Of a stretch of DNA of 64,000 nucleotides, positions 25,702-41,687 are shown in pieces (positions within the stretch are counted from its first letter, which is position 1; each line of letters opens with the position of its first letter). Below the pieces are notes generated by a model. It did no database searches. It was not told where the DNA came from and worked only from the letters and a program-made list of their open reading frames with translations. Location: positions 2,666,001 to 2,730,000 of the forward strand of contig NZ_CP047940.1 in NCBI RefSeq assembly GCF_014280235.1, written 5' to 3'. The DNA is from Cyanobium sp. NS01 (GTDB lineage: Bacteria; Cyanobacteriota; Cyanobacteriia; PCC-6307; Cyanobiaceae). The position numbers and the translations under genes are program-made.

Positions 25702-27198
25702 GTCGCTGAGAGGCACACCCTTGTCATGCAGCTCAGCCAGCCTCGGGTCGGCGTCCATGGAGCCGCCGAGGAAGATCTTCACGGCTTCCACCATCTCGCC
25801 GTCCTTGCGGGTCTTGGCTCCCATCAGGCCGATCTGACCCATGTAGGGCTGGCCGCAGGCGTTGGGACAACCGGTCCAGTGGGTGCGCACCCCATGGGGC
25901 AGCTCCACCCGCCGCTCCAGCTCCTCCACCAGCTCCTGGGCCGTGCTCTTGGTGGGGATCAGGGCAAAACTGCAGTAGGCGTTGCCGGTGCAGCTCACAG
26001 CCTCGGCCTGCAGGTGGCCGGGATCGGGGCGGAAGCGCTGCAGCAGCGGCTCGGCCAGCAGCGCCTCCTGGCTGGCTTCCGGCACGTTGACGATCAGGGC
26101 GTTCTGGGCCTCGGTGAGCCGCAGTTCACCGCTGCCGTACTGCCGGGCCAGACCGGCCAGGGCCAGCATCCCTTCGGCATCGAGACGGCCCATCGGCACG
26201 TGCAGGCCCATCCAGCCGAGCCCCTCCTGGGCCTGGGCATTCCAGCCGAGGCCATCCCGGGGAGCCCGTGTCACCAGGTGCGTGCCGTCGTGGGGCTGGA
26301 GCGAGGCCATCGCCTCGCCGCCGGCCAACGCCCCATAGGCCGCCTTGATCGTGTCCCTGTAGGTCTCAAGCCCCAGTTCATCGATCAGATACATCAGCCG
26401 GCTCTTGTTGCGCAGCTTGCGATTGCCGTTCTGCTCGAAGTGCAACAGCACCGTGAGGGCAAAATCAGGCAGCTGATCAGCCCGCAGCCACAGGCCGAGC
26501 GGGATGGCGAGTTCGTTGCGCTGGGCTGAGAAGAAGCCGCCCACCATCACGGTGAAGCCGAGCTCGCCGGCGTGATGGGCGGGCAGGAAGGCGAGGTCGT
26601 TGTGGAGCAGGAAGCTGTCGGGAGCACCGCCGACGGCCACGTTGAACTTGCGCGGCAGGTTGCGGGGGCCATCCGGCTGGAACAGCCGCGCCTGAATCGC
26701 CTGCACGAGGGGACGCGTGTCGACGATCTCCTCGGGATCGATGCCGGCCAGGGGGTTGCCGGTGATGTTGCGCGGGTTGTCGTGTCCCGACTGGCGACTG
26801 GTCAGGCCCACCCGCTCCATGGCCTCCAACAGCGGCGCCATGTCCTCGAACAGCAGGCCCCGCAGCTGCAGGTTCTGGCGGGTGGTGATGTCGGCGCTGC
26901 CGTGCTCGCCGCAACGATCCACCGCCTCGGCGAGCAGCTCCAGCTGCTCAGCGCTGACCACGCCGTTCGGGAGTCGCAGCCGCAGCATGAAACGGCCGGG
27001 GGTGACGGGCCGGAAAAAGATGCCCATCCACTTCAGCCGGATGGTGAGGGTGGCCTCGTCGAGGCTGTCCCAGCCGGCAGCGGCCAGCTCGGCCAGCTGG
27101 GGTTGCAGATCGAGGCCGCAGAGATCGGCCTTGGCCTGCTCCACCTTGGTGAGGCCGGAGCTGGGAGTGGTCGCTTCAGGGGTCGTGGGAGTGCTCAT
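25633..27198 (-). CDS. nirA: Ferredoxin-nitrite reductase
   Basis: The 521-aa enzyme reduces nitrite to ammonium with six electrons from ferredoxin. The siroheme/4Fe-4S ligands are visible as C-x5-C (SCTGNAYCSF) and C-x3-C (TGCPNACGQ). N-terminal ferredoxin-like halves carry TIRLKWMGIFFRPVTPGRFMLRLR and DITTRQNLQLRG. I start at MSTPTTPEATTP (27198); the open frame runs to 27408 but the extension is non-conserved-looking. A one-mismatch NtcA box lies about 240 bases upstream. Confidence 0.95.
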   Translation of the reverse strand: MSTPTTPEATTPSSGLTKVEQAKADLCGLDLQPQLAELAAAGWDSLDEATLTIRLKWMGIFFRPVTPGRFMLRLRLPNGVVSAEQLELLAEAVDRCGEHGSADITTRQNLQLRGLLFEDMAPLLEAMERVGLTSRQSGHDNPRNITGNPLAGIDPEEIVDTRPLVQAIQARLFQPDGPRNLPRKFNVAVGGAPDSFLLHNDLAFLPAHHAGELGFTVMVGGFFSAQRNELAIPLGLWLRADQLPDFALTVLLHFEQNGNRKLRNKSRLMYLIDELGLETYRDTIKAAYGALAGGEAMASLQPHDGTHLVTRAPRDGLGWNAQAQEGLGWMGLHVPMGRLDAEGMLALAGLARQYGSGELRLTEAQNALIVNVPEASQEALLAEPLLQRFRPDPGHLQAEAVSCTGNAYCSFALIPTKSTAQELVEELERRVELPHGVRTHWTGCPNACGQPYMGQIGLMGAKTRKDGEMVEAVKIFLGGSMDADPRLAELHDKGVPLSDLPDVMEQLLVDRFGARRKAAAA

Positions 27199-27410
27199 GG
27201 AAGAGGGAAGCGGCGCACCGGAGGCACGCCCAGACAACGCGGCCGTGAACAGGACCCCACGGCACCACCACACCTCACCCCATCGGTCGGGAGGGGATGA
27301 GGCCGGTGAACGCCAATGAGGGATGCGTTGTCCGGAATGGGAGGGCAGCGCCATGGCGCTGCGTCTCCCCTTCGAGATGAGCTGGGATCTGCAATCACAG
27401 ACCTTCACTG

Positions 27411-27452
27411 ATCCTGCAGGCGCGGGGCAGGACCGGGTGTCGTGGTCGTTAC
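27411..27452 (-). promoter_or_regulatory. NtcA-like promoter of nirA
   Basis: On the minus strand GTA-N8-GAC (plus 27439-27452) is a one-mismatch NtcA box, followed after 22 bases by CAGGAT (27411-27416), close to TAN3T. The implied leader of about 205 bases to the nirA ATG is long. nirA is a classic NtcA target, which raises the prior. Confidence 0.4.
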
Positions 27453-27480
27453 GGATCTGTTATCCCTGACCTGGCTGGCC

Positions 27481-27687
27481 TCAGCGCTCCCCCAGGGCAC
27501 TCCAGAGGGTGGCGGGATGGGCCACCACCGAGGCGGCTCGCCCGGCGGAGGCGGCAGGCGCCGCGTCGCGTAGCAGACCGGCCAGCAGTTGAACCCCCAG
27601 GGACCCCACCACAAACATGCCGACGAAGGCGAGGGCGACGCCGAGGGGGGAGCTGGCGCTACGGGTGGCCTGCAGCGGAGTGGCCAT
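27481..27687 (-). CDS. Small single-span membrane protein (hypothetical)
   Basis: The 68-aa product starts MATPLQATRSASS and has one clear membrane segment, PLGVALAFVGMFVVGSLGVQL, followed by LLAGLLRD and an Ala-rich tail. No family is recognised. It lies just upstream of nirA on the same strand, with the putative nirA promoter in between. A slightly earlier start (27708) is possible. Confidence 0.5.
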   Translation of the reverse strand: MATPLQATRSASSPLGVALAFVGMFVVGSLGVQLLAGLLRDAAPAASAGRAASVVAHPATLWSALGER

Positions 27688-28133
27688 GGCGGAGCTGCCG
27701 AAGAACAAACTCCAGTATCGAAGCTGGATGAGGGGATTCAGAAGCCGGCGCCGGCTGGGGGGGCAGGGCTCCAGGCCCCCACCAGAGCTGATCCAGGCGC
27801 CTCAACGACGCTGTTGGGCCGCAGCTCAAGGCTCACCAGACCATGCAGGCATCCGAGCAGAAGCCCGCAGCAGGCAGCAAATCGCATCGGCGCACCCAGG
27901 TCTCAGGGTCGACTGTCTCCAGCCAGGGGGCCATCGGGATGCAGCGGTTGGTACCGAACCGAAGCCGCCTGGCCCCGGTGCCAATCTTCAGGATGTCTTC
28001 AGTGTCGGTTGATACTTTTTTCCGTTCTGGCCTTTGTTCGGTGGGGCACACGCTGGACGATCACTGGTGACAGCATGGAGTTCTCGACCATGCAGCCCGT
28101 GCGGCCCACGCTGCCCCCTCCCCTCAGCCCTTG
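27688..28133. other. Intergenic region between small membrane gene and TrpD-like gene
   Basis: This 446-base divergent region has short open frames on both strands without protein-like composition. Two minor features stand out: a GTG-N8-TAC sequence at 28002-28015 with no suitable -10, and a 19-codon frame at 28075-28134 whose TGA overlaps the ATG of the TrpD-like gene. Neither is strong. Confidence 0.45.
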
Positions 28134-29252
28134 ATGGCGCTCCCTTCCGGCACCCTGCCCAACGCCTCGCCTGAGACCGGACTGAACGGCCATGCCCCTG
28201 CTGTGGAGCTTCTGTCTGGCCGTGAGCGTTTCAAGCACTATCTGCAGAAGGTGGGCAGTGGCGAGCACACCAGCCGGGGGCTGAGCCGGGAGGAGGCCGG
28301 CCACGCGCTGGAACTGATGCTGCTCGAAGAGGCCACGCCGGCCCAGATCGGCGCCTTTCTGATCGCCCATCGGATCCGTCGGCCCGAGCCCCAGGAACTG
28401 GCCGGAATGCTGGATGTCTACCGGCGCCTGGGGCCGAGCCTGCGCAGTGCCGAGCCTGCCCTCTGCTTCGGCATGCCCTTTGACGGCCGCACCCGCACGG
28501 CCCCCATTTATCCGCTCACCGCCCTGGCCCTGAGTGCGGCCGGGCTGCCCGTGGTACTGCAGGGGGGGGGCCGCATGCCGGTGAAATATGGCGTGCCGGC
28601 CATCGAGCTGTTCGCCGCCCTGGGGCTGGAGCTGCAGGGGCTGGACCTGACCACGGTGCAGGCAGGGCTGACGCAGCACCGCCTGGCCCTGGTGCACCAA
28701 CCGGACCACTTCCCGCTGGCGGAGAGCCTCACGCCGATCCGCGACGACCTGGGCAAGCGCCCCCCCGTGGCCAGCCTCGAATTGCTCTGGACCGCCCATC
28801 AGGGCCCCCACCTGCTGGTGAGCGGCTTCGTGCATCCCCCCACCGAAAGCCGGGCCTGGAAGGCCCTGGAACTGGCCGGCGAGGCGATGGCCATCACGGT
28901 GAAAGGCCTCGAGGGCAGCACCGACCTGCCGATCAGCCGCGCCTGCATCACGGCCCGGGCCCAGGGAGGTGATGGGGAGCGCCTGATCCTTCACCCGCGC
29001 GACCACGGCTGTTACGACAACGATGCCCTCTGGCAGGATCTCGAGAGCTGGCGCGAGCAGGCCCTGGCCGCTCTCGGTGGCCAGGGGCCCCTGGCCACCG
29101 CCCTGATCTGGAATGCCGGGGCCTATCTCTGGTATGGCGGTGTCTGCCAGGATCTGGCTGCAGGCGTGGCCCGCGCCACAGATCTGGTCCAGAGCGGAGC
29201 GCTGCTGGATCAGCTGCGTGCCCTGATCCAGTGGAGACACGATGCTTCCTGA
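28134..29252 (+). CDS. Anthranilate phosphoribosyltransferase-like protein (TrpD2/YbiB type)
   Basis: The 372-aa protein has the TrpD/nucleoside-phosphorylase fold: N-terminal helices FKHYLQKVGSGEHTSRGLSREEAGHALELMLLEEATPAQIGAFLIAHRIR, then the catalytic domain. The Gly-rich PRPP loop of true TrpD (GTGGD) is replaced by GMPFDGRTRTAP, and the later RHG motif by LQGGGRMPVKYG, so it is unlikely to make tryptophan. E. coli YbiB, which binds nucleic acid, is a member of this class. Its stop overlaps narM by 11 bases, so it is part of the nitrate reductase neighbourhood; its role there is unknown. Confidence 0.8.
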   Translation: MALPSGTLPNASPETGLNGHAPAVELLSGRERFKHYLQKVGSGEHTSRGLSREEAGHALELMLLEEATPAQIGAFLIAHRIRRPEPQELAGMLDVYRRLGPSLRSAEPALCFGMPFDGRTRTAPIYPLTALALSAAGLPVVLQGGGRMPVKYGVPAIELFAALGLELQGLDLTTVQAGLTQHRLALVHQPDHFPLAESLTPIRDDLGKRPPVASLELLWTAHQGPHLLVSGFVHPPTESRAWKALELAGEAMAITVKGLEGSTDLPISRACITARAQGGDGERLILHPRDHGCYDNDALWQDLESWREQALAALGGQGPLATALIWNAGAYLWYGGVCQDLAAGVARATDLVQSGALLDQLRALIQWRHDAS

Positions 29253-29730
29253 AGGCTCCCATCCTTGCTCCCACTGCTTCGGCTTCGAGCGCGACTTCGT
29301 CGGGAACTGGCGCTGCATTCCCCTCTGCCTGCGCCGCAAGCTCGATCTCTGCGGTGTGAAACTGCGGCTCAACCACTGGCTGGCCCTCACGGGAAGCCAG
29401 CGGGATCAGCTCGTGCTCTGGCCTGACGGCCCCGACGACCTGGCGGCCCTGGCGGCCGAGCTGCGCCAGAGCACGGCGGCCATGGCGGACGGCGGGGTCA
29501 CCTCCCTGCCCATCCCCCGCGAAGCCCCCTGGCAACACCCTGGAGCGCCCCCCGCTGAAGTGAGCAGCTCAGCCGCAGAGCTGGGCTATGGGCTGGGGCC
29601 TGACCAGTGGAATGGTCTCTCGGAGCTGGAGCGGTTTGCTCTCTGCAAGCTGGCCCGCCCCGGCCACGACCATCACAACCTGCCAGCGGCGCTGGTGGAG
29701 CTGTTTGCCCCGACCGGGGCCTCCTCCTGA
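29242..29730 (+). CDS. narM: Nitrate reductase-associated protein NarM
   Basis: The 162-aa protein shows the family pattern FGFERDFVGNWRCIPLCLRRKLDLCGVKLRLNHW in its first 50 residues and ELERFALCKLARPGHDHHNL near the end. In Synechococcus elongatus NarM is needed for an active cyanobacterial nitrate reductase, probably for cofactor insertion or maturation. It is convergent with narB and the two stop regions overlap by 58 bases. Confidence 0.88.
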   Translation: MLPEGSHPCSHCFGFERDFVGNWRCIPLCLRRKLDLCGVKLRLNHWLALTGSQRDQLVLWPDGPDDLAALAAELRQSTAAMADGGVTSLPIPREAPWQHPGAPPAEVSSSAAELGYGLGPDQWNGLSELERFALCKLARPGHDHHNLPAALVELFAPTGASS

Positions 29731-31880
29731 ACCCTGGCGACGGCCACGGCGGCGGCCTTGAGTTCGGGCTGCCTGGAGATCGGGCAGGCCTGCTCGTGCA
29801 GCAGGGCGTTGGCCTCACAGGCCTGCTCCTGCATGAAGCCCCAGTGCATCGGCAGAAACACGGTGCCCGGTCGGATGCGCTCGGTCACCGTCGCCCGGGC
29901 CGTGATCGTGCCACGCAGGGAGCGGATCTCGGCCATGGCGCCATCCTCCAGGCCGAGGGGGCCGGCATCCTCGGGGTGAATCTCGAGCAGGGGCTCAGGA
30001 TGCAGGGCGTTGAGGCGAGGCACCTTGGCGGTGCGCGTCATGGTGTGCCACTGGCCCAGGTAACGGCCCACCGTGAGCACCAGAGGATACCTGTCGCTGG
30101 GAGGCTCCGCCAGGCCCATGGGCTGCTCGGCGATGAAGCGGGCCCGACCACTGGCGGTGGGGAAGTGGTGATCGGTGTACAGGCGCCGGGGCTCTTGGCT
30201 GGGAGCTGAGCCGCAGGGGAAGGGCCACTGCTGGGGACCCTCGCTGGCCAGCAGGGCGTGGCTGAGGCCGGAGTGATCGCAGAGCCGATCGGCGGTGAGG
30301 GCGGCCAGCTCGGCGTAGACCTCCGCCGCGGAGCCGTAGCTGAAGGCCTCAACGAAGCCCAGCCTGCGGCCCACCTCCGCGAACACCTGCCAATCGGGGC
30401 GGGCCTCTCCGGGGGGCGGCCGAAAGGCCGGACACAGGGTGACCCGCCGCTCTGAATTCACCATCACCCCGGGCTTTTCACTCCACTGGGCCGCAGGCAG
30501 CAGCAGGTGCGCGTACTGGGCGGTCTCGGTGTCGGCATAGGCATCGCTGAGCACCACCAACGGGCAGCGGCTCACGGCGGCCTTGACCCGCTCCAGGTTC
30601 GGCATGCTCACCAGGGGATTGGTGGCCGCCACCCACCAGAGATCAAGGGCACCAGACTCCATTGCCTCCACCTGCCGCCAGGCGTCGAGGCCAGGCGCGG
30701 GATCGATCGCGCCGGCCCCGAACCGCCAGGCCGCCTCCACCACGGCCCGGTGGGAGGGATCCACCACCGTGCGATAGCCCGGCAGCAGGTGGGCCAGCCC
30801 ACCGGCTTCGCGGCCGCCCATGGCATTGGGCTGGCCGGTGAGGGAGAAGGGCCCCGCTCCCACCTTGCCGATCTGGCCGGTGAGCAGGTGCAGGTTGATC
30901 AGGCCCGCCACCTTGGCGGTGCCCTCCACGCTCTGGTTGAGGCCCATCGACCAGAGGCTGAGCACGCTGGGGGCCTGGCCCCAGAGCTGGGCCAGCTGCC
31001 GCAGGGCCGCCTCAGAGATGCCGCACAGCCGGCTGACCCGCTCGGGGGTCCAGGCCTGCAGGAGTTCGGCATAGGCGGCGAAACCTTCGGTGGCCTCCTC
31101 GATGAACTCCACGTCGATCGTGAGCGCCTGCACCATCAGATGGGCCAGGCCGTGCATCAGCACCAGGTCGGTGCCGGGGCGAATCGCCAGGTGCAGGTCG
31201 GCCGCGTCGCTGGTGGCCGTCTGCCTGGGATCCACCACCACGATGGTGACGCTGCCGGGCTGGCGCCGTTTGCGCTTCAGCAGCCGCTGAAACAGCACCG
31301 GATGGCACTCCGCCGTGTTGGTGCCGATCAGGAAGGCCACGGCGCAGTGGTCGAGATCCTCGTAGCAGCAGGGGGGGCCATCGGAGCCGAGGCTGCGGGC
31401 ATAGCCCGCCACGGCCGAACTCATGCACAGGCGCGAGTTGGCATCGAAGTTGTTGGTGCCGATCGCCCCCTTGAGCAACTTCTGGGCGACGTAGTAGTCC
31501 TCGATGTGAAACTGGCCGGAGCCATACATGGCGATCGCTCCGGGGCCCTTGCTGGCCAGGGAGGTGCGGATCCGGGCCACGATGCGATCGATGGCCTGAT
31601 CCCAGCTGATCGGCTGGAAGGGCTCGTCCAGGCTGGCGCGAGCCAGCGGCTGGCTGAGCCGTCCGTGGCGCAGGGTGTCGCACACCGTGGCCCCCTTGAT
31701 GCACACCTGCCCAAGGCTGGAGGGATGGCGCCGATCCCCCCGGGTGCCCCAGAGGGGAAGGCCGTCGGCGTCGCGCCGGGTGGGCTGATTTTTGGCAGCA
31801 GGGGGAAGCAACTCCAGGCCACAGCCCACGCCGCAGTAGGGGCACTGGGAGCGCACCGAGCCTGGTGGGGAAGCAGCCAT
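29673..31880 (-). CDS. narB: Ferredoxin-dependent assimilatory nitrate reductase NarB
   Basis: The 735-aa molybdoenzyme reduces nitrate to nitrite. Its N-terminal 4Fe-4S cluster ligands are Cys13, Cys16, Cys20 and Cys60 (CPYCGVGC ... QVCIKG). Molybdopterin domains follow, with FDANSRLCMSSAVAGY (Mo-ligand Cys), FLIGTNTAECHPV, GTDLVLMHGLAH, and the C-terminal beta-barrel with HWGFM. It needs the Moco genes just downstream of nrtP. Its 3' end overlaps narM in antisense. A terminator-like hairpin separates it from nrtP. Confidence 0.95.
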   Translation of the reverse strand: MAASPPGSVRSQCPYCGVGCGLELLPPAAKNQPTRRDADGLPLWGTRGDRRHPSSLGQVCIKGATVCDTLRHGRLSQPLARASLDEPFQPISWDQAIDRIVARIRTSLASKGPGAIAMYGSGQFHIEDYYVAQKLLKGAIGTNNFDANSRLCMSSAVAGYARSLGSDGPPCCYEDLDHCAVAFLIGTNTAECHPVLFQRLLKRKRRQPGSVTIVVVDPRQTATSDAADLHLAIRPGTDLVLMHGLAHLMVQALTIDVEFIEEATEGFAAYAELLQAWTPERVSRLCGISEAALRQLAQLWGQAPSVLSLWSMGLNQSVEGTAKVAGLINLHLLTGQIGKVGAGPFSLTGQPNAMGGREAGGLAHLLPGYRTVVDPSHRAVVEAAWRFGAGAIDPAPGLDAWRQVEAMESGALDLWWVAATNPLVSMPNLERVKAAVSRCPLVVLSDAYADTETAQYAHLLLPAAQWSEKPGVMVNSERRVTLCPAFRPPPGEARPDWQVFAEVGRRLGFVEAFSYGSAAEVYAELAALTADRLCDHSGLSHALLASEGPQQWPFPCGSAPSQEPRRLYTDHHFPTASGRARFIAEQPMGLAEPPSDRYPLVLTVGRYLGQWHTMTRTAKVPRLNALHPEPLLEIHPEDAGPLGLEDGAMAEIRSLRGTITARATVTERIRPGTVFLPMHWGFMQEQACEANALLHEQACPISRQPELKAAAVAVARVQEEAPVGANSSTSAAGRL

Positions 31881-31902
31881 GGGGCTCAGAGAACAGGCGG
31901 AT

Positions 31903-31931
31903 AAAAAAGGGGCCGACCCAGGGCCTGCCCC
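31903..31931 (-). terminator. Terminator-like hairpin between nrtP and narB
   Basis: Read on the minus strand, GGGGC (31927-31931) pairs with GCCCC (31909-31913), with a largely paired inner arm, followed by six T residues (A-run 31903-31908). It lies 29 bases past the nrtP stop and 23 bases before narB. It would reduce read-through from nrtP into narB, making narB expression lower or separately controlled. Confidence 0.6.
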
Positions 31932-31959
31932 TCAGCAGCGATGCGGTTGAGGACCCGGA

Positions 31960-33525
31960 TCAGACCAGCGGCGCGGAAGCCACAGCCGTTTCTCCTTCGT
32001 GGAGCTCATCGAAGGATCCCTTGGGCTCCTTCAGCACGAAGTAGCAGAGGAAACCAACGATCAGACCAGCCACACCCAGAACCTGGAAGAAGGCACTGTT
32101 GGAGGCAGCCACCACGGCGGGGGTGGGTTCGGCATCGGCGGCGCCGGACAACCACAGCGGCAGCAGGCTGTAGATGGTGAGGTAGGCCACGGCACCCACG
32201 TTGCCGTAGGCGCCCACCATGCCGGCAATCTGGCCTGTGACCCGACGCTTCACCAACGGCACCATGGCGAACGTGGATCCTTCCCCTGCCTGCACAAAGA
32301 AGGAACACAGCATGGTGATCACCAGGGCCAGCAGGATGCCGGCGGAACCGACGAACGTTCCGGGCTTGATCATGCTCATCAGCAGATAGCCGAAACCAAG
32401 ACCAACCGTGAGGAAGCCCATCGTCGACTTGCGCGACCCGAGCTTGTCCGAGAGCAGGCCGCCGCCGGGACGTGCCACCAGGTTCACAAACGCGAAGGCC
32501 GAGGCCAGGATTCCCGCTGTGGCCTTGGGCAGGTCAAAGGTGGTTTCGAAGAAGGTGGGGAGCATGGACACCACGGCCAGCTCCGAGCCGAAGTTCACGA
32601 TGTAGGTGAGCTCGAGAATGGCCACCTGCTTGAACTCATAGCGATCCTCCTTGGGATACACCTTGGTTCCGGCGATCAACTCCTTGTTGGTGCGGATGAT
32701 GCCCCAGGTCTGGAACCCGAAGAACAGCAGCACCAGCACGATGGCGATGGCAAAGCCGGTGTCATCGAGAAACTTCACCTTCTGAAGGCGCCAGGCCAGC
32801 ACGGCCAGGATCACGCCGAAGGGCACGTTCATGCCGATCAGGCCCCAGAAGTCCCGCATGGAGGTCACCTCCAGGCCAGCCGTCCTGGCGGGGCGCTGGT
32901 AGGTGCGGCCAGGCGGGGTGTCTTCAACGTTGAGGTAGTAGAAGACGCCGTAGATGGCGGCGATGATGCCGGAGAGGGCAATGGCGCCGCGCCAGTTGAG
33001 CACCACGCCATCGACCGCGAAACCACCTCCGAAGGAGAGCCAGCCGGCCAGGGTGACCATGGTGAGGGCCGAGAAAGCGGAACCGAAGTTGCCCCAGCCG
33101 CCGTAGATGCCTTCAGCCAGGCCGATCTCCTTGGGCGGGAACCATTCAGCCACCATGCGAATGCCGATCACAAAGCCGGCGCCCACGATCGAAAGCAGCA
33201 GGCGGGCCACCACCAGCTGGTTGAAATCCTGAGCGAAGGCGAACAACAGGCAGGGGAAAGCCGAAAAAACCAGCAGCGCCGAGTAGGTGAGGCGGGGCCC
33301 GTACTTGTCGAGCAGCATTCCAATCAGGATGCGGGCCGGCACGGTGAGGGCCACGTTGCAGATTGCAACGGTGCGAATCTGGGGCACCGTGAGGCCCAGA
33401 TCAGCTTTGACGGTGGTCGCCAGCGGCGCCAGGTTGAACCAGACAACAAAAGTAAGAAAGAACGCAAACCAGGTGAGATGCAGCGTCTTGTATCTCCCCT
33501 GGAGAGACCAGAGTTCACCGAGCAT
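31960..33525 (-). CDS. nrtP: Nitrate/nitrite permease of the NNP family
   Basis: The 521-aa protein has about 12 membrane segments. It has NNP-type motifs: FFLTFVVWFNLAPL near residue 22, GFVIGIRMVAEWFPPKEIGLAEGIYGGWGNFG in the middle, and FVNLVARPGGGLLSDKLGSRKS with the MFS loop. The EGSTFAMVPLVKRRVTGQIAG segment is typical for the second nitrate signature. It brings nitrate (and nitrite) into the cell and is the alternative to the NrtABCD system, which is absent here. An NtcA-like promoter lies in front. Confidence 0.95.
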   Translation of the reverse strand: MLGELWSLQGRYKTLHLTWFAFFLTFVVWFNLAPLATTVKADLGLTVPQIRTVAICNVALTVPARILIGMLLDKYGPRLTYSALLVFSAFPCLLFAFAQDFNQLVVARLLLSIVGAGFVIGIRMVAEWFPPKEIGLAEGIYGGWGNFGSAFSALTMVTLAGWLSFGGGFAVDGVVLNWRGAIALSGIIAAIYGVFYYLNVEDTPPGRTYQRPARTAGLEVTSMRDFWGLIGMNVPFGVILAVLAWRLQKVKFLDDTGFAIAIVLVLLFFGFQTWGIIRTNKELIAGTKVYPKEDRYEFKQVAILELTYIVNFGSELAVVSMLPTFFETTFDLPKATAGILASAFAFVNLVARPGGGLLSDKLGSRKSTMGFLTVGLGFGYLLMSMIKPGTFVGSAGILLALVITMLCSFFVQAGEGSTFAMVPLVKRRVTGQIAGMVGAYGNVGAVAYLTIYSLLPLWLSGAADAEPTPAVVAASNSAFFQVLGVAGLIVGFLCYFVLKEPKGSFDELHEGETAVASAPLV

Positions 33526-33604: not shown

Positions 33605-33646
33605 ACTACACCAGAGCGTCTGATTCATTTCTGTGGTTGACGCTAC
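33605..33646 (-). promoter_or_regulatory. NtcA-like promoter of nrtP
   Basis: On the minus strand GTA-N8-CAC (plus TAC 33644-33646 and GTG 33633-33635) is a one-mismatch NtcA box. TGTAGT (33605-33610) follows after 22 bases and resembles TATAAT at four positions. The transcript would start near 33598, about 73 bases before the nrtP ATG. Because the box is palindromic it might also act on the divergent mobA. Confidence 0.55.
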
Positions 33647-34364
33647 CGAGATCAGCCGATGCTGTTCCACGCCATTGGATTCCACGCCATTGGAACTGAT
33701 CCCGCCCCAGGCCCCCCTGCGCTGCTGCCTGCTGAGTGGCGGCAGCAGCCGGCGCATGGGCCGGGACAAGGCCCTGCTGGACCATCCCGCCGGGGGGAGC
33801 TGGCTCAGCCACACCCTGGGGCTGCTGGCTGAGCTGGAGGCCCCGATCAGCCTCTGCAGCAATCACCCGAGCCATCGCCAGCTGGCAGAGCAGCTGCGCT
33901 GGTTCAGCCGGCTGGGCCAGGGCCTGCCCCTGGCTGCCTCCCTGCAGCTGATCGAGGAACCCATCCCCCCCCAGGGCCCCCTGCAGGCCCTGGGCCATCT
34001 GATGCACTGCCACCCCGGCGAGCGCCTTTTGCTCTGCCCGGTGGACATGCCCTGGCTGGATCGGCCCAGCCTCGACCAGCTGCAGCGCAGCGCCGAGGAA
34101 CGGCCCCGGCAACTATCTGTGGCCTGCGATGGAGCGCGCCTGCACCCCCTGCTGGGGATCTACCCCGCCAGTGAGGCCCTGCGCCGCGATCTGCACAGCT
34201 GGCTGGCCCAGGGGCACCGCAGCATGCACAGCTGGCTGGCCCGCCACACCATCCACCCCGTGCTGCTGCCCGCCAGCGCCCTGCACAACTGCAACCGCCC
34301 CGAAGACTGGCCGGGGCCCCGGCCCGCCGGGCTCGTCAGTCCGGCGCCCCGGGCGACAGGCTGA
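33633..34364 (+). CDS. mobA: Molybdenum cofactor guanylyltransferase
   Basis: MobA attaches GMP to molybdopterin. The nucleotide-binding motif CCLLSGGSSRRMGRDKALL is followed by LSHTLGLL, and LLLCPVDMPWLDRP holds the metal-binding Asp. From the first GTG (33633) the product is 243 aa, longer than usual. This GTG lies inside the NtcA-like box, so the true start is probably downstream, perhaps TTG at 33690. The extra N-terminus contains a perfect 15-base tandem duplication. It starts the Moco cluster, divergent from nrtP. Confidence 0.85.
   Translation: MVDATEISRCCSTPLDSTPLELIPPQAPLRCCLLSGGSSRRMGRDKALLDHPAGGSWLSHTLGLLAELEAPISLCSNHPSHRQLAEQLRWFSRLGQGLPLAASLQLIEEPIPPQGPLQALGHLMHCHPGERLLLCPVDMPWLDRPSLDQLQRSAEERPRQLSVACDGARLHPLLGIYPASEALRRDLHSWLAQGHRSMHSWLARHTIHPVLLPASALHNCNRPEDWPGPRPAGLVSPAPRATG
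33665..33694 (+). repeat. Perfect 15-base tandem duplication
   Basis: Two exact back-to-back copies of a 15-base unit (TTCCACGCCATTGGA at 33665-33679 and 33680-33694) lie at the start of mobA. If translated they give STPLD then STPLE. The length is a multiple of three, so it keeps the reading frame. Confidence 0.9.
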
Positions 34365-34393
34365 CGGCATCGTTCTCTGTGCGCTAAGCCGCC

Positions 34394-35428
34394 GTGGTTG
34401 CTGCCGTTCTCGACCAGCTGGGCCGGCGCCCCGGCGTGCTGCGCCTCTCCCTGACGGCCCGGTGCAACCTGGCCTGCCCCTACTGCTGCCCCGATGACCA
34501 CGACCCACCGGAGCTGCTGAGCCCTGGCGAGCGGCGCACGCTGATCGCCGTGGCCGCCGGCCTGGGCTTCTCGAGCCTGCGGCTCACCGGCGGCGAACCG
34601 CTGCTGCACCAGGAGCTGGAGGCCCTGATCGAGGCGGTGCAGGACCTGCGTCAACCTGCCGGCCTGCGCGAGGTCGCCCTCACCACCAACGGGGTGCTGC
34701 TCACGGCCGCGCGGGCCAGGGCCCTGCGGCAGGCGGGCCTCGATCGGATCACCATCAGCCTCGATGGCGCCGATGGCGCCAGCGTGGCGCTCATGAGCGG
34801 CCGGGCCCACCAGGGCGAGCTGTTGCTGGCCCGGGTGCTGGAAGGCGTCCGCCATGCCCGCGAGGCGGGCTTCGATCCCGGGCGCGGGCAACTCAAACTC
34901 AACGCGGTGATCGACCGGCGCCGCAACGCTGACCAGCTGTTGCCCCTGGCGCGCCTGGCCAGAGAGCTGGGGGTGGAGCTGCGCCTGATCGAGTTCATGG
35001 ATGTGGGCAACCGCAACGGCTGGAGCCCAGACCAGGTGCTCACCGCCGCCGAGATGGTTGAGCGGATCGGGAGCCGCTGGCCCCTGCAGCCCCAGGGCCG
35101 GGCCCACCACGGCACCGCCAGCCGCTGGCGCTACCTGGATCGCGACGACGACCTGCACCTGGCCGTGGTGGCATCGATCTCGGCGCCGTTCTGCGGCGAC
35201 TGCAACCGGCTGCGGGTGACGGCCGATGGCCAGGCCTACACCTGTCTGTTCGGCACCGCCGGCACCGACCTCAAGCCCTGGCTGCGGCCGCGGCCCGATG
35301 CGGCCGGTCTGCGCGCCCGGCTGCAGGCGCTGTGGGGCCAGCGCCACGATCGCTACAGCGAAGAGCGGGCCCACCTGCAGCCGGGAGCCTTCCTTCCCCA
35401 CGCCGAGATGGCCTACCTGGGCGGCTAG
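34394..35428 (+). CDS. moaA: GTP 3',8-cyclase MoaA
   Basis: This radical SAM enzyme (344 aa) begins molybdopterin synthesis. The first cluster motif C-x3-C-x2-C is at residues 24, 28 and 31 (CNLACPYC). The second cluster's cysteines are in FCGDCNRLRVTADGQAYTC near the C-terminus. RLTGGEPLLH and TISLDGAD are also as expected. The start is GTG. The usual C-terminal GG is present (YLGG). Its last four bases overlap the convergent moaB. Confidence 0.95.
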   Translation: MVAAVLDQLGRRPGVLRLSLTARCNLACPYCCPDDHDPPELLSPGERRTLIAVAAGLGFSSLRLTGGEPLLHQELEALIEAVQDLRQPAGLREVALTTNGVLLTAARARALRQAGLDRITISLDGADGASVALMSGRAHQGELLLARVLEGVRHAREAGFDPGRGQLKLNAVIDRRRNADQLLPLARLARELGVELRLIEFMDVGNRNGWSPDQVLTAAEMVERIGSRWPLQPQGRAHHGTASRWRYLDRDDDLHLAVVASISAPFCGDCNRLRVTADGQAYTCLFGTAGTDLKPWLRPRPDAAGLRARLQALWGQRHDRYSEERAHLQPGAFLPHAEMAYLGG

Positions 35429-35949
35429 TCGCCGCTGGGTTCCCCCAGGCGGGGCAGCAGCTGCACCAGGTTGCAGGGACGGGTCTCGGCGCTGAGCTGG
35501 GCCTGGATCAGCCGGTCCCAGGCGGTCTGCACCGCATCGAGCGAGCCTGGCAACACGAACACCACGGTGCCGTTGGCCACCCCCGCCAGGCAGCGGCTCT
35601 GCAGGGAGCTGGTGCCGATGGTCTCGAAGGACAGCACCCGGAACAGTTCACCGAAGCCGTCGATCGTCTTGTCCAGCAGCGGTGCCACGGCCTCGGGCGT
35701 GCCGTCGCGGCCGGTGAGCCCGGTGCCGCCGGAGCTGATCACCACCTGCACGGCGGGGTCGGCGATCCAGCTGCTCAGAACCGCGCGGATGCGGTAGCGG
35801 TTGTCGGGCACCAGCTGCCGATCGGCCAGCCGGTGGCCCGCGGCCTGCAGGCGCTCCAGCAGGGCAGCACCGGAGTGGTCGTCCGCCAGGGTGCGCGTGT
35901 CCGACACGGTGAGCAAGGCAATGGCAAGACCCACCCGAATCGGCTCCAA
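35425..35949 (-). CDS. moaB: Molybdopterin adenylyltransferase (MoaB/MogA family)
   Basis: The 174-aa protein has the MPT-binding motifs LLTVSDTRTLADDHSG and VISSGGTGLTGRDGTPEAV, then VFVLPGS. It adenylates or binds molybdopterin before metal insertion by MoeA. The longest frame starts with TTG at 35949; a GTG at 35934 is an alternative. It is convergent with moaA (4-base overlap) and divergent from moaD. Confidence 0.9.
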   Translation of the reverse strand: MEPIRVGLAIALLTVSDTRTLADDHSGAALLERLQAAGHRLADRQLVPDNRYRIRAVLSSWIADPAVQVVISSGGTGLTGRDGTPEAVAPLLDKTIDGFGELFRVLSFETIGTSSLQSRCLAGVANGTVVFVLPGSLDAVQTAWDRLIQAQLSAETRPCNLVQLLPRLGEPSGD

Positions 35950-36016
35950 AGCGCCATTGTGGGTCCATTGAACCCGGCTTCAGGCCCCTGCGCTGCAGGG
36001 CCCTCAGCCGCCAGCC

Positions 36017-36334
36017 ATGCCGAAGCCAGCCCTGGGTCAGAGCAACGCGGAGCAACCGCTGCGGGTGCTGCTGTTCGCCTCACTGCGGGAGCGGGCCGGC
36101 TGGAGCGAACGGCAACTGGCCCTGCCGGCACGGGAGCCGGTCACGGCCCTGGAGATCTGGGAGCAGCTGGGACTCGCTGAGCCGGAACAACCAGCCTCCA
36201 GAACCTCCACCCCTCTCCGCCGGGGCTGGCCGGCCGGTCTGCGCGTTGCCATCAACCAGCGCTTCGCCGCGGCGGAGCAGCCCCTGCAGGCGGGCGACGA
36301 GCTGGCCTTCCTGCCGCCGATCAGCGGAGGTTGA
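36017..36334 (+). CDS. moaD: Molybdopterin synthase sulfur carrier subunit MoaD
   Basis: The 105-aa ubiquitin-like protein ends in SGG, the C-terminal glycines that become the thiocarboxylate donating sulfur to precursor Z. It has RVLLFASLRERAGW near the start and GDELAFLPPISGG at the end. A short Pro/Arg-rich insert (near residues 57-72) makes it longer than most MoaD proteins. Its stop overlaps the moaE start region, pairing the two synthase subunits. Confidence 0.92.
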   Translation: MPKPALGQSNAEQPLRVLLFASLRERAGWSERQLALPAREPVTALEIWEQLGLAEPEQPASRTSTPLRRGWPAGLRVAINQRFAAAEQPLQAGDELAFLPPISGG

Positions 36335-36789
36335 GCGTGGAGCTGACCCTCGCGCTCCAGCCCCAGCCATTCGATCCGCTGCATCACCTGGAGGGCTGGC
36401 AGCGGGCGCAGGCCGATGGGCCACGTGGAGCCAGCGCCGCTGAAGCCTGGTTCATCGGCCGGGTGCGGGGCCACGACGGCCGGGGGGAGCCCCTGGAGGC
36501 CCTGGAGCTGGAGCACTATCCCGGCATGACGGAGCACTGCCTGCGCAGCCAGGCCGAGCAGCTGGGCCGGCACCATGGCGCCAGCGCCCTGCTGGTGCAG
36601 CACCGGGTGGGGCGGGTGCTGCCGGGCGAGGCGATCGTGCTGGTGGCCGTGGCCGCTGACCGGCGCGGGCCCGCCCAGCGCTGCTGTCAGGCCCTGCTGG
36701 AGGCCCTCAAGCACGACGCGCCGTTCTGGAAACGGGAGTGGCTGCGCAGCGGCGCAAGCCGCTGGGTGGAGGGCAACACCGCCTTCTGA
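36331..36789 (+). CDS. moaE: Molybdopterin synthase catalytic subunit MoaE
   Basis: The 152-aa subunit binds precursor Z and takes sulfur from MoaD. Landmarks are FIGRVRGHDGRG, LELEHYPGMTE, VQHRVGRVLPGEAIVLVAVAADRR and FWKREW. The longest start is TTG at 36331 (overlapping the moaD stop); a GTG at 36337 is equally plausible. It ends 20 bases before the convergent moeA stop. Confidence 0.93.
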   Translation: MSVELTLALQPQPFDPLHHLEGWQRAQADGPRGASAAEAWFIGRVRGHDGRGEPLEALELEHYPGMTEHCLRSQAEQLGRHHGASALLVQHRVGRVLPGEAIVLVAVAADRRGPAQRCCQALLEALKHDAPFWKREWLRSGASRWVEGNTAF

Positions 36790-36809: not shown

Positions 36810-38054
36810 CTAGAAGATCGGCAGCCGCAGCAGCTGGGCCCAGACGCTGGCCCCCGCCTCGAGGCCAGCGCAGTCGGCGGGGAGTTCCAGCAACAGGTCT
36901 GCCCCCTGCAACGAGCCGATCCGGGAAGAGGCCTGGCTGCCTTCCAACCGGGCCAGGAGCTGGCCCGCAGGCCCCACCTCCAGGCGGGCCCGGGCCAGCT
37001 CAGGCCGGCCCGGGGAACGCCGCAGGGGCGTGGCCAGCTGCACCTGCAGGCGCGGCAGCAGGGTCACCTCGGCGCCCTCCAGCCGCTGCAGGGCCGGCCA
37101 GAGCAGCTGCAGCGCCGTGATCGCCGCCGCCACCGGGTTGCCCGGCAGCCCGAAGAACGGCCGGCCCAGCACCGCCCCGAAGGCAAAGGGGCGGCCCGGC
37201 CTGAGGAGCAGCTTCCAGAACGCCACGGCGCCCAGCTCCTCCACCAGGGGACGGATCCAGTCGCTGTCGCCCGCCGACACCCCACCGGTGCTCACGACCA
37301 CATCGCAGCTGGCCGCGAGCTGCTCAAGGGACCGCCGCAGACTCTGCGGGTCATCGGCCACCACCAGGGGGGCCTGCACGCCGTAGCCCAGCCGCGCCAG
37401 CAGAGCCTCCAGCAGGGTGCCGTTGCTCTCCCAGATCGCCCCCGCTGGCCGCGGCTGCCCCACCGGCGTGAGCTCATCGCCGCTGATCAGCAGGCCCAGC
37501 CGCGGCTGCGGCCGCAGCGGCAGGCAGGCCACGCCGCAGCTGGCCAGCCGGGCCAGGTCGGCGGGCCCCAGGCGCTGGCCGGCCCCGATCAGCACCTGGC
37601 CGGGGGCAGCCTCCTCGTCGGCCGCCCGGATCCAGGGGTTGGCTCCAGCCTCGCGCTGCAACACCAGCTCGGTGCCGGCTGGATCGACCCCCGCCAGCTC
37701 CTGGGGCAGCACCCGCTCCGAGCCCTCAGGCACCGGAGCCCCCGTGAGAATGCGCAGGGCCTCGCCGGCCTGGAGCGGGCGCTCGAACGGGGCGCCGGGG
37801 GCGGAGCGTCCCACCAGCCGCCAGCGGCTGCCGAGGGGCGGCGGCGGCGCCGAGCCAGCCAGGGCGTAGCCATCCATGATCGAGGCACGGAACCCCGGCA
37901 CCGCCTGGGCCGCCACCACCGCCGCGGCCGTGACCCGGCCCAGCGCCGCGGCCAGGGGCAGCTCTTCCGAGCCGGGGAGGGGGTGGAGTGCCTCCAGCAC
38001 CTGGCGGCGGGCGACGTCCAGCGGCAGGCCCTCAGCGGGGAACGGTTCTGTCAT
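36810..38054 (-). CDS. moeA: Molybdopterin molybdenumtransferase MoeA
   Basis: The 414-aa protein has the MoeA domain order: N-terminal RQVLEALHPL, domain with SIMDGYALAG, LTGAPVPEG, LLISGDELTPVG, the MPT-binding VVSTGGVSAGDSDWI, FFGLPGNPVAAA, and a C-terminal beta domain. It inserts molybdate into adenylated molybdopterin. It lies six bases beyond the HAD-MoaC fusion, so both are surely in one leftward transcript. Confidence 0.94.
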   Translation of the reverse strand: MTEPFPAEGLPLDVARRQVLEALHPLPGSEELPLAAALGRVTAAAVVAAQAVPGFRASIMDGYALAGSAPPPPLGSRWRLVGRSAPGAPFERPLQAGEALRILTGAPVPEGSERVLPQELAGVDPAGTELVLQREAGANPWIRAADEEAAPGQVLIGAGQRLGPADLARLASCGVACLPLRPQPRLGLLISGDELTPVGQPRPAGAIWESNGTLLEALLARLGYGVQAPLVVADDPQSLRRSLEQLAASCDVVVSTGGVSAGDSDWIRPLVEELGAVAFWKLLLRPGRPFAFGAVLGRPFFGLPGNPVAAAITALQLLWPALQRLEGAEVTLLPRLQVQLATPLRRSPGRPELARARLEVGPAGQLLARLEGSQASSRIGSLQGADLLLELPADCAGLEAGASVWAQLLRLPIF

Positions 38055-38060
38055 GGCGGC

Positions 38061-39476
38061 TCAGACCTCCGCTTCGGGGCGGACCCAGGCCCCATTCCGC
38101 CCACCGTCCTTGCGCACCAGCCGCACCGGCCCGATGGTCATGGCGGGATCCCGGGACTTCACCATGTCGTACAGGGTGAGCAGACCCACCTGCACGGCCG
38201 TGAGCGCTTCCATCTCCACCCCGGTGGGGCCGGTGGTGCGGGCTGCCACCTCCACCCTGAGACCGGAGCGCTGCTGCGCCGGCTCGATCGTCACGTCCAG
38301 ACCGGTCAGGGCCAGGGGGTGGCAGAGGGGAATCAGCTCCGAGGTGCGCTTGGCCGCCTGGATCGCCGCCACCCTGGCCACGGCCAGCACATCCCCCTTG
38401 GCGGTGCGGCCCTCCAGCACCGCCGCCAGCAGCGCCGGGTCCATGCTGATGAAGCCCTCCGCCACGGCGCTGCGCAGGCTGGGGGGCCGCTCCCCCACCT
38501 CCACCATGCGGGCCTCGCCGCGGCTGTTCAGGTGGGTGAGCGCCGGTGCCTCCAACCAGGCCGCGGCGCCGGGGCAGTGGTGCACCACACCCTCCACCAC
38601 CCCGGCGGCGTAGTTGCCGTTCATGCCCATGAACTCCCCCTGGGCCAGATAGAGCTGCTGCCGGGCGGCAGCGGGCAGGCCCAGGGCCTGCTTCAACGCG
38701 GGATCGGCGTTGGCCACCAGGATCGAGCGCAGCTCGCTCTGGAGCACCGGCAGGTCGTTGCCGCTGTCACCGGCGAACAGGGTGTCGTCGCGGCCGAAGC
38801 CCAGCTGGGCCATCAGGAAGCGCACGGCGTGCAGCTTCGTGGCTGAAGCGGGCAGCACATCCAGCAGGCCCACGCCGGCGGGCTCATCCAGGCTGTGGAT
38901 CACGCTGGCCGCCACCCCCTCCTGCGCCAGCCGCGCCTCGATGCGGGCCCGCAGCGGTGCCACCTCCAGGGCCGGGTCCACATAGAAGCTCAGCTTGTGG
39001 AGGCTCTGGTGGCTGGGCTCCTGCAGCCGCAGCTCCGGCAGGTGCTCCAGCAGCGGCCACAGCGCCTCGCCGCTGCGGCCGCCCCAGTCGGCGGCGATCG
39101 CCCCATCCCAGCCCCGCTGCCGGATCCAGCCGGACGGCCCTACCTCCAGGATGGTGGTGCCCACATCGGCGACCACCCAGGCCGGCTCGGGCAGGGAGTA
39201 GCGCTCGATCGCCTCGGCCACCAGGGCCGGATCCCGGCCGGACACGTAGGCCAGGGTGACCTGGGGCCGCTGCACCAGGCGGGCGAACAGGCTCCGGGCT
39301 GCGCTGGATTCGCTCTGGTGGCCGTTCGGCACCAGGGTGCGGTCGAGATCACTGCAGAGCAGCAGCCGTGAGGGGGGCAGCGGCCGTTGGCCAGCCTGAG
39401 CTGGCGGTTGCAAAGCCGAGCGGGGATCGGAGGCCATCAGCCGAGGGGGCCCTCCCCACACGTCTACGCCCGACAA
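38061..39476 (-). CDS. moaC: Fusion of HAD (sucrose-phosphatase-like) domain and MoaC
   Basis: One uninterrupted 471-codon frame joins two known domains. Residues about 36-300 are a HAD-IIB phosphatase of the sucrose-6-phosphate phosphatase type: CSDLDRTLV (Asp43, Asp45), [16 protein letters not shown] (Lys) and AGDSGNDLP (237-241). Residues about 311-471 are a full MoaC (cyclic pyranopterin monophosphate synthase) with [34 protein letters not shown] and LYDMVKS (Asp437, Lys440, matching the catalytic pair of E. coli MoaC). No stop or obvious internal ATG separates them. An internal start for MoaC alone (such as a GTG near residue 297) cannot be excluded. It lies between sps and moeA. Confidence 0.88.
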
Positions 39477-39506: not shown

Positions 39507-41687
39507 CTAGAGGCTGAGGAAGTCGTAGTGGTCGATCGCCTCGAGAATGCCCCGGGCATGGGACTGGGAGGCCAGGTAGATGTGTTCCGTCTCGCCCAGG
39601 TTGGAGAGTTCCTCGCAATGGCGGTTGGCCACCACCACGCCGAGGGTGTTGCCGCGCAGCATGTCTTCATCGCCCCCTGAACCGCCGGTGACCAGGATTC
39701 GCTCCAGGGGGATCCGCCAGCGCTGGGCCGCGAAGCGCAGCGCCTGGCCCTTGGAGGCGCGGGCCGGCACCAGATCCAGATACTGGCCGAAGGACAGGGT
39801 GAGATTCACCGACAGCTCGTGCTGCCGCAGCAGGGCCCGCACCTCCTCCACCGCGGGAGCCAGAGCGCCGTCGTAGTGATACGACAACTTGAAGGTGCTC
39901 TGTTCGTTGCGCGCCTGGAGGTGCAGCCCAGGCAGTTCCCGCAGCAGCCGCCGGATCACCCACGGGGTCCACAGGTGGTTGATGTGGGAGGCCCAGGCCA
40001 GATCGGGCAACCAGTTCGGCGAGTAGTAGATCTCCGTGCCCAGGCTGGTGATCAGGATGTCCGGCAGGGGAATGGCGTACTCGCGGATGATGCCCAGCAC
40101 CGAATCGAGGCGGCGGCCGCTGGCGATGCCGAACAGCCAGTCGTTGCCGCGCTCCCTGAGCACGGCGCTGAGCTGGTCGAGGCCGGCCCGGTCGCCCAGC
40201 AGGGTGTTGTCCACCGCCGAGAACAGAGCCTTGCTGTGGCCGCGGGTGCTGCGCACCATCGGTGGTGCCGGCACGTCGAGACTGCCCTCCACCAGGTGGC
40301 GCAGTTTGCACAGGTAGGTCTCGGCATGGGCGTCCCAGGAGTAGTGGCGGGCCACCAGCCGGGCACCGTTACTGGAGAAGCTCTGCCAGCGGCGGGAGTC
40401 GGCCAGGATCGCCAGCAGAGCCTCGGCCATGGCCCCGGTGTTGAGGGGGTCCACCAGCAGGCCATTGCGGCAGTTGGCGATGATGTCCACCGGTCCACCG
40501 TTTTCGGTGGCCACCACGGGCAAGCCACTGGCGGCCGCCTCCAGCAGCGTGAGCCCGAACGGCTCGGTGAGGGCCGGATTGATGAACACCCCCCGCGAGG
40601 CCGCGGCCAGGCGGTAGATCATCGGCACCTGCTCGGCGCTGTGATGCTTGGGCAGCGCCACCCGGCCATGCAGCCCATGGCTGTCGATCGCCACCAACAG
40701 CTCGATGAACACGGCCTGCGGACCCTCATCGAGATCGCGGATGTCATCGCGGTTGCCGGCCACGATCACCAGGTTGGCCTGTTCCTGCAGGGGCAGGCTG
40801 GCGCCGTAGGCCTCCACCAGCGTGATCAGGTTCTTGCGCAGATCGGGCCGTGACAGGGCCAGGATGATCGGCTTCTGCGGCTGCTTCAGAAACCACGCCA
40901 GGCTGGCCTTGAACGACTCGGCAGCGGCGATGTCGTGATCAGACGAGCCGTTCGGGGCGGCCTCAGGCAGGTGGAACTGCTCGAGATCGGTGCCCGGCGG
41001 TATCACCACCATCTTGGCGGGGATGGAACCGTCATAGAGCCCGTATTGATCTTCGATCTCATTGCGGGTGCTGGTGATCACCAGGGAGGCCTGGGTGATC
41101 ACCTCTTCCTCGGCATCGATGCGGCGCGAGATGTTGTATCGGCTCTCGATCTGCTCCAGCGACAGCCCCATCGAGAGCAGCCGCCGGTACTTGTCCCGCC
41201 CCAGGGAGTGGCCGGTGTGCACCAGGGGCAGTCCAGTGCGGTGGGCCAGCCTCACTCCCACATAGCCGGCATCGGCGTAGTGGCTGTGCAGCACATCGGG
41301 CCGCTGGGGCTGGGCCTGGATCCAGGCCAGCAGGTTGTCGGTGAAGCTGTCGAGGTGGTCCCAGAGCTCCTCCTTGCGCAGGTACTCCGCCGGACCGGCC
41401 TCAATGCGCACGATCCGGGCCCCGGGCCCGAGCGGCTCCAGCGGCACGGCGTAGTCGGCGCTCACAGCCGGATCGGCCACCAGCCGGGTCACCAGATCCA
41501 CCCCCGCCACCTGGGGGTGGCGAGCCAGCGCCCGGGAGAGCTCCACCACATATTTGCTCTGGCCGCCCGTGTCGGCGTCGCGGCCCAGTTCCAGATCGTG
41601 GCCGCGGATGAGGCCATGCAGGCTGATCAGCAGCAGGCGCAGCGGCGCTGCGGAACCGCCGGGCTCAGACTCGGACTGGGCTGGCAA
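39507..41687 (-). CDS. sps: Sucrose-phosphate synthase with degenerate phosphatase-like domain
   Basis: The 726-aa protein has a GT4/GT-B glucosyltransferase (residues about 1-470): LISLHGLIRGHDLELGRDADTGGQSKYVVEL, HSHYADAGYVG, HTGHSLGRDK, and the donor-site motif FINPALTEPFGLTLLEAAASGLP. The C-terminal 240 residues resemble sucrose-phosphate phosphatase, but motif I reads FSAVDNT: Ala491 replaces the nucleophilic Asp while Asp493 remains, and motif IV reads GGSGGDEDML. The phosphatase activity is therefore probably lost. It makes sucrose-6-phosphate, a compatible-solute precursor. The start is TTG. A separate HAD domain with intact aspartates is encoded just downstream. Confidence 0.92.
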   Translation of the reverse strand: MPAQSESEPGGSAAPLRLLLISLHGLIRGHDLELGRDADTGGQSKYVVELSRALARHPQVAGVDLVTRLVADPAVSADYAVPLEPLGPGARIVRIEAGPAEYLRKEELWDHLDSFTDNLLAWIQAQPQRPDVLHSHYADAGYVGVRLAHRTGLPLVHTGHSLGRDKYRRLLSMGLSLEQIESRYNISRRIDAEEEVITQASLVITSTRNEIEDQYGLYDGSIPAKMVVIPPGTDLEQFHLPEAAPNGSSDHDIAAAESFKASLAWFLKQPQKPIILALSRPDLRKNLITLVEAYGASLPLQEQANLVIVAGNRDDIRDLDEGPQAVFIELLVAIDSHGLHGRVALPKHHSAEQVPMIYRLAAASRGVFINPALTEPFGLTLLEAAASGLPVVATENGGPVDIIANCRNGLLVDPLNTGAMAEALLAILADSRRWQSFSSNGARLVARHYSWDAHAETYLCKLRHLVEGSLDVPAPPMVRSTRGHSKALFSAVDNTLLGDRAGLDQLSAVLRERGNDWLFGIASGRRLDSVLGIIREYAIPLPDILITSLGTEIYYSPNWLPDLAWASHINHLWTPWVIRRLLRELPGLHLQARNEQSTFKLSYHYDGALAPAVEEVRALLRQHELSVNLTLSFGQYLDLVPARASKGQALRFAAQRWRIPLERILVTGGSGGDEDMLRGNTLGVVVANRHCEELSNLGETEHIYLASQSHARGILEAIDHYDFLSL

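Follow-up and report, generated by a model that had tools for sequence, protein, structure and literature searches.

The stretch of DNA that we analysed, hereafter the window, comprises 64,000 nucleotides of the Cyanobium sp. NS01 genome, which is a single contig of 2.75 Mb. On the minus strand of the window lies a gene whose product joins an N-terminal HAD-IIB domain of the sucrose-6-phosphate phosphatase (SPP) kind to a C-terminal MoaC, flanked by a gene for sucrose-phosphate synthase (SPS) and by genes for synthesis of the molybdenum cofactor (Moco; Table 1). The Moco genes in turn adjoin a nitrate-assimilation island of probable nirA, narB and nrtP (window 25633-33525, minus strand; names taken from the translations). 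An earlier, sequence-only reading of this region had reported one stop-free frame running from a HAD domain into a complete MoaC, with each half next to its own pathway, and had not stated its strand. Our analysis bears out this description in full and adds that the strand is minus: Pfam places S6PP (PF05116) at residues 37-299 (1.8e-48; 165.7 bits against a gathering score of 20.3) and MoaC at residues 324-459 (4.5e-50), both above their cut-offs, and the fused gene is closely spaced on both sides, with sps ending 30 bases before its TTG and moeA starting 6 bases past its stop. An in-frame ATG at 39437 (residue 14), giving a protein of 458 residues, is likely to be the start in preference to this TTG; the conserved part of the protein begins near residue 36.

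Table 1. Features of the SPP-MoaC locus in window coordinates
Feature	Position	Strand	Remarks
Molybdopterin oxidoreductase, probably nitrate reductase narB (Moco user)	29673..31880	-	PF00384 at window 30366-31661
Other Moco genes (mobA, moaA, moaB, moaD, moaE)	33633..36789		Labels read from translations; matches in relatives
moeA	36810..38054	-	Starts 6 bases past the fusion stop
spp-moaC fusion gene	38061..39476	-	One uninterrupted frame, 471 aa from TTG 39476
MoaC half	38064..38543	-	Residues 312-471; K360, H386, D437, K440
Internal ATG (Met324)	38505..38507	-	Preceded by GAGG at a distance of five bases; Pfam MoaC match begins at this residue
Junction	38532..38558	-	Residues 307-315 (WLEAPALTH); SPP end directly abuts MoaC start, without stop or spacer gene
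HAD-IIB / sucrose-6-phosphate phosphatase half	38550..39437	-	Residues 14-309; D43, D45, Q152, K161, K214, D237, N240, D241
sps, sucrose-phosphate synthase	39507..41687	-	C-terminal phosphatase-like domain, nucleophile Asp replaced by Ala

The same reading had proposed a search of related genomes for the same domain pair, and this search proved decisive. The fusion is present in three of the 13 genomes of the genus (the window genome, G000, together with G099 and G072) and absent from the other ten. The two further fused proteins share 72% and 71% identity with that of the window over the aligned part, corresponding to about 28% protein divergence, and are encoded by frames of 549 and 525 amino acids from stop to stop, with no stop inside, in genomes of one and two contigs. 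Among the matches listed from 400 genomes drawn from the family, only these three align across both halves; the query covered the HAD half and the beginning of MoaC, and as the matches were ranked, fusions were expected at the head of the list. In 386 genomes drawn from the phylum, both halves were aligned in G000 only, and G099 and G072 are absent from the genomes with a match in that sample and hence had not been drawn.

At the joint itself dN is below dS. In all three genes the end of SPP (..WLE) passes in frame into the start of MoaC (..HLN) over an interval of one to three residues plus a conserved leucine, and a 6-base insertion or deletion in one genome preserves the frame. Over the 39-41 codons of the junction, dN/dS by the Nei-Gojobori method is about 0.33 (0.12/0.37), 0.37 (0.19/0.52) and 0.11 (0.06/0.54) for the three pairs. 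No stop is retained at the joint of the fused genes, and where moaC would normally start there is neither ATG nor GTG; the window's copy has a TTG at that place, which corresponds to an SPP codon. That two separate genes were joined by a sequencing or assembly artefact is so improbable as to be negligible, and we reject it, given that one and the same junction, diverging codon-wise and with an in-frame indel, recurs in three genomes, each assembled into one or two contigs. SPP-MoaC is thus a real, inherited fusion of two known enzymes.

The length of the open frame was not used as a criterion of fusion, since in GC-rich DNA a long open frame by itself is weak proof. When ten other MoaC loci were fetched and nine of their frames scanned with Pfam (L160 was left out), eight of these nine long MoaC frames held no second Pfam domain; the remaining one is a MoaC-MoeA fusion. 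Five weaker matches from the genome searches that extend to the joint or close to it (G329, G323, G048, G509 and G103), one with an internal TGA and one with an internal TAG, were likewise set aside, as none has a HAD domain.

The MoaC half has the features of a complete enzyme. It passes the TIGR00581 moaC equivalog cut-off (183.4 against 141.5 bits), and in a phmmer alignment residues 312-464 match E. coli MoaC (1ekr) over its full length and without gaps. Residues K51, H77, D128 and K131 of the E. coli protein, which we take to be its catalytic Lys, His, Asp and Lys, align to K360, H386, D437 and K440, so that Asp437 and Lys440 had been correctly picked out as catalytic in the earlier reading, as had the intact DLDRT and GDSGND motifs of the HAD half. 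MoaC is a hexamer that makes cyclic pyranopterin monophosphate (cPMP). The fused copy is the only MoaC found in the window genome, G099 and G072 give one match each, and all three fused genomes carry a molybdopterin oxidoreductase gene; with a single MoaC and molybdoenzyme genes present, it is unlikely that this MoaC is dispensable.

The HAD half aligns in phmmer to the sucrose-phosphatase of Synechocystis (1s2o) and retains its catalytic positions (D43, D45, K214, D237 and D241). According to PMC9971976, SPPs are set apart from SPP-like proteins by a DLDx[T] motif with leucine second and no glycine in fourth place, by a tyrosine in motif II and by SGN in motif III; the HAD half reads DLDRT, AYVSGR and GDSGND at these three motifs. 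The same review assigns binding of the glucose ring of sucrose-6-phosphate (S6P) to Q107, K116 and N189 of the Synechocystis enzyme, and these align to Q152, K161 and N240 here.

The adjoining SPS provides a second line of evidence. Its C-terminal phosphatase-like domain lacks the nucleophile, and in PMC9971976 an Asp-to-Ala change at this residue is described as abolishing S6P dephosphorylation by the S. elongatus enzyme. Across 41 SPS proteins, of which one (G194) has a broken frame and was unreadable, the first aspartate of DxDx[ST] is replaced in 31 of 31 that have such a HAD adjoining (by Ala in 23 and Ser in 8) and kept in nine of nine that do not, a comparison that sets two SPS clades against one another, with all nine of the latter from this genus, and so represents few events and not 40 independent cases. 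Motif III is also degenerate (..SQQGD..) in the nine that keep the nucleophile, so the activity of their phosphatase domains is not certain. In the window genome the fused HAD half is the only S6PP match that keeps the nucleophile. Collectively, the retention of SPP residues, the loss of the SPS nucleophile and the lack of another such S6PP match make this half the most likely S6P phosphatase of the cell. A 2023 review (PMC9971976) poses as an open question the co-evolution of bidomain SPS that have and that lack phosphatase activity, and loss of the SPS nucleophile alongside a separate SPP bears on it, as a contrast between two clades and not as independent events.

Gene order indicates how the two halves may have met. 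In all 29 unfused loci that we mapped, a GH13 gene follows spp (order sps-spp-GH13), compared with none of the three fused loci. These 29 comprise eight non-cyanobacterial contigs (five Sideroxydans or Gallionella, two labelled Gammaproteobacteria and one Desulforhopalus), the genomes G221, G023 and G069, and 18 further genomes of the family; the GH13 gene is in pieces in G221 and cut by the contig end in G142. At least about 35 unfused genomes with this HAD appeared in the family search, and surroundings were mapped for 21 of them; more distant HADs of G030 and G203 (33% and 30%) were not counted as this kind. For the GH13 product, Pfam supports an alpha-amylase domain and nothing more specific, with no NCBIfam match above cut-off; it may, by analogy, be an amylosucrase, an enzyme present in sucrose clusters according to PMC4390843. 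The eight non-cyanobacterial loci (L034-L041; Sideroxydans, Gallionella and other metagenome-assembled genomes) carry the same sps-spp-GH13 cassette, with SPPs 54-58% identical in seven of the eight, which suggests that the cassette has passed between cyanobacteria and other bacteria.

Unfused relatives within the genus (G121, G030 and G140) have the order moeA-moaC-(gap)-MFS-ppk, where MFS and ppk are our own labels, and a different SPS elsewhere. In the fused genomes moaC and the MFS gene are separated by an sps-spp pair, with moaC and moeA following spp. The sister group (G023 and G069) instead carries the cassette on the opposite side, flanked by moeA and moaE and unfused, together with its GH13 gene. 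The GH13 gene of the G023/G069 type has no close match in the three fused genomes (at best 35-36%, partial), nor in G121, an unfused genome of the genus (33%), so the cassette may have arrived without this gene and not lost it here. In the family, the cassette lies near Moco genes, at varied positions, in nine of the 21 unfused loci mapped; several genera show this neighbourhood, with the cassette between moeA and moaE in L122 and L123 and 3-4 kb from moaB in L075, L124, L125, L127, L134 and L138.

Phylogenetic trees of the two halves agree on a common group. The three fused HAD halves cluster with moderate support (89/86), with the unfused G023 and G069 HADs as their sister (100/99), in a tree of 29 of 32 sequences (G194, G077 and G037 were lost to the motif filter), and the three fused MoaC halves form one group (100/99) in a tree of 27 of 32 (G121, G149, G091, G134 and G084 lost to the filter). 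The trees fit a single origin of the fusion. Its simplest account would be one event that removed the end of the cassette, the spp stop and the moaC start, and arrival of a cassette that was already shortened is a possible alternative.

Based on these observations, we put at roughly 70% the probability that the gene encodes one bifunctional SPP-MoaC polypeptide with two independent active sites. In this protein the N-terminal half would hydrolyse S6P delivered by the adjoining SPS, in which the phosphatase-like domain has no nucleophile, and the C-terminal half, the only MoaC found, would make cPMP for the Moco of nitrate reductase. The fusion would have arisen once, in the ancestor of the three species, as moaC came to adjoin the end of the sucrose cassette: with the spp stop and the moaC start gone and the GH13 gene missing, presumably by deletion, the frames were joined without a spacer. 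The genes sps, spp-moaC and moeA lie close together on one strand as a single block and are probably co-transcribed, and the product would remain uncleaved, oligomerise through its MoaC half and represent a fusion that was tolerated rather than selected. An AlphaFold2 model built from a 10-row alignment was weak, with a mean pLDDT of 61.4 and values below 50 at the junction, and gives no information on the mutual placement of the halves.

The rival that fares best holds that the genes are fused in DNA and yet give also, or mainly, two proteins, with a separate MoaC translated from an internal ATG by translational overlap. For such a product Met324 is the most plausible start as judged from the sequence: the ATG with GAGG five bases upstream is present in all three fused genes, the methionine opens the Pfam MoaC match, and the match to one PDB MoaC chain, 2ohd_A, begins only at query residue 321. 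Pairing energies with the anti-Shine-Dalgarno sequence, for which one of 30 loci gave no match, average -9.3 in the fused genes (-6.5 in the window, -8.8 and, in G072, -12.6, the strongest of all 29) and -7.7 in the 26 unfused genes (range -3.0 to -12.3). The fused genes therefore span the range of the unfused ones, and the value for the window falls on the weak side of the unfused mean. Moreover, the site comes from conserved G-E-x-x-M codons that are found in unfused genes too, and a MoaC beginning at Met324 would be without the HLN stretch that all three fusions keep. We consider a separate MoaC unlikely on balance, while regarding it as a serious contender.

A further question is whether the single bifunctional protein was favoured by selection. 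The sequence-only reading had offered two alternatives, a passive merger of adjacent genes and a coupling of Moco supply to sucrose metabolism. The first gains from the trees, from the occurrence in three of 13 genomes and from the position of moaC where the GH13 gene would stand, and for the second we found nothing that shows it. A selected fusion, in which one transcript and one protein tie the supply of cofactor for nitrate reductase to the sucrose operon, could draw on the placement of moaC and moeA behind sps in one tight block, on the recurrence of Moco genes near the sucrose cassette in the unfused family loci (at positions that differ) and on retention of the fusion through the divergence of the three proteins. 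Yet the trees fit one origin, no further fusion appeared beyond this genus among the matches listed from the family or in the phylum sample, 29 of the 32 mapped HAD loci (the window counted) are unfused, and in all three fused genomes the region between sps and the MFS gene contains no NtcA-type GTAN8TAC. Selection for coupling is thus distinctly unlikely. The window's four GTAN8TAC sites, compared with 0.35 expected by chance, lie elsewhere (4851, 22572, 25203 and 62554).

Passive origin is clearly the more likely, given the single origin by trees, the narrow spread, the predominance of unfused HAD loci and an unrelated MoaC-MoeA fusion in G084, and regulatory side effects are possible. The only coupling that the anatomy suggests is a putative shared transcript. 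More speculatively, a MoaC oligomer could be a scaffold presenting several SPP domains, through which SPS with its inactive phosphatase-like domain would dock, and the sps promoter would set the Moco supply for nitrate assimilation. We regard this as very improbable; were it true, a sucrose-synthesis assembly would carry cPMP synthesis, and salt or carbon status would control nitrate use. Two enzymes of unrelated pathways in one chain, each the only evident copy, provide a test of how reliable the rule 'fused means functionally linked' is.

The assignment of the HAD half might also be mistaken, with this domain being an SPP-like HAD for another substrate, or inactive. The half scores below the NCBIfam TIGR01485 SPP equivalog cut-off (94.8 against 183.65 bits) and below that of TIGR01482, and the nine SPS of the genus that keep the nucleophile without such a HAD adjoining indicate that a separate SPP is not universal. 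All three unfused HAD relatives that were scored likewise lie below the TIGR01485 cut-off (90.1, 116.1 and 96.6). Against another substrate stand the motif features, which are of the SPP kind as set out in PMC9971976, and the status of this half as the genome's sole S6PP match with its nucleophile kept. We therefore judge another substrate, or inactivity, to be quite improbable, and favour an active SPP within the bifunctional chain.

Cleavage of the translated fusion into SPP and MoaC by a protease is the least probable of the biological alternatives, on a par with the scaffold. It has a precedent in human MOCS1AB, in which MoaC has a natural N-terminal partner and is cut to release MOCS1B, as PMC9607355 describes. 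Here, by contrast, the domain ends are separated by about one to three residues and hence by no linker, which argues against cleavage.

SPP-MoaC combines two known enzymes in a domain pairing that is new. Among the papers searched, none names MoaC together with sucrose-phosphate phosphatase or sucrose phosphatase, and none of those that mention cyclic pyranopterin monophosphate synthase and sucrose is relevant by its title. Models of known MoaC fusions match the MoaC part only and remain below their curated cut-offs: PRK03604 (MoaC/MoaB) at 169.5 against 285 bits, PRK14499 (MoaC/MOSC) at 152.2 against 457 and PRK14500 (MoaC/MobA) at 106.1 against 606. A MoaC-MoeA fusion of separate kind, an open frame of 590 amino acids at L152:2204-3973 (G084:C7), occurs in another genus of the family, where moaC has thus joined another neighbour. 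In G180, a truncated moaC overlaps the last part of moeA (L092:11238-11654, G180:C109), apparently as a deletion remnant, and a full-length MoaC match lies on a different contig.

Compared with known systems, each half is close to its free counterpart. Like SPP (PF05116; slr0953, 1s2o), the fused HAD is by sequence of class HAD-IIB, with the DLD motif, the motif II tyrosine, the lysine, GDSGND and the Gln/Lys/Asn set; it differs in belonging to a subgroup encoded in sps-spp-GH13 cassettes, in lying below TIGR01485 and in carrying a C-terminal MoaC. Like MoaC (TIGR00581; E. coli 1ekr), the second half is full length with its catalytic positions kept, whereas, unlike a free MoaC, it has no ATG or GTG of its own at the usual place and its N-terminus is attached to SPP. 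PRK03604, PRK14499, PRK14500 and human MOCS1AB are likewise longer proteins of which MoaC makes up one half, but their partners are Moco-related or MOSC, where here the N-terminal partner is from sucrose synthesis. The bidomain SPS of cyanobacteria (GTD-PHD), of which the adjoining SPS is an example whose PHD has no nucleophile, is also a fusion with an SPP-type domain; in it, unlike in SPP-MoaC, the phosphatase domain and its fusion partner serve one pathway.
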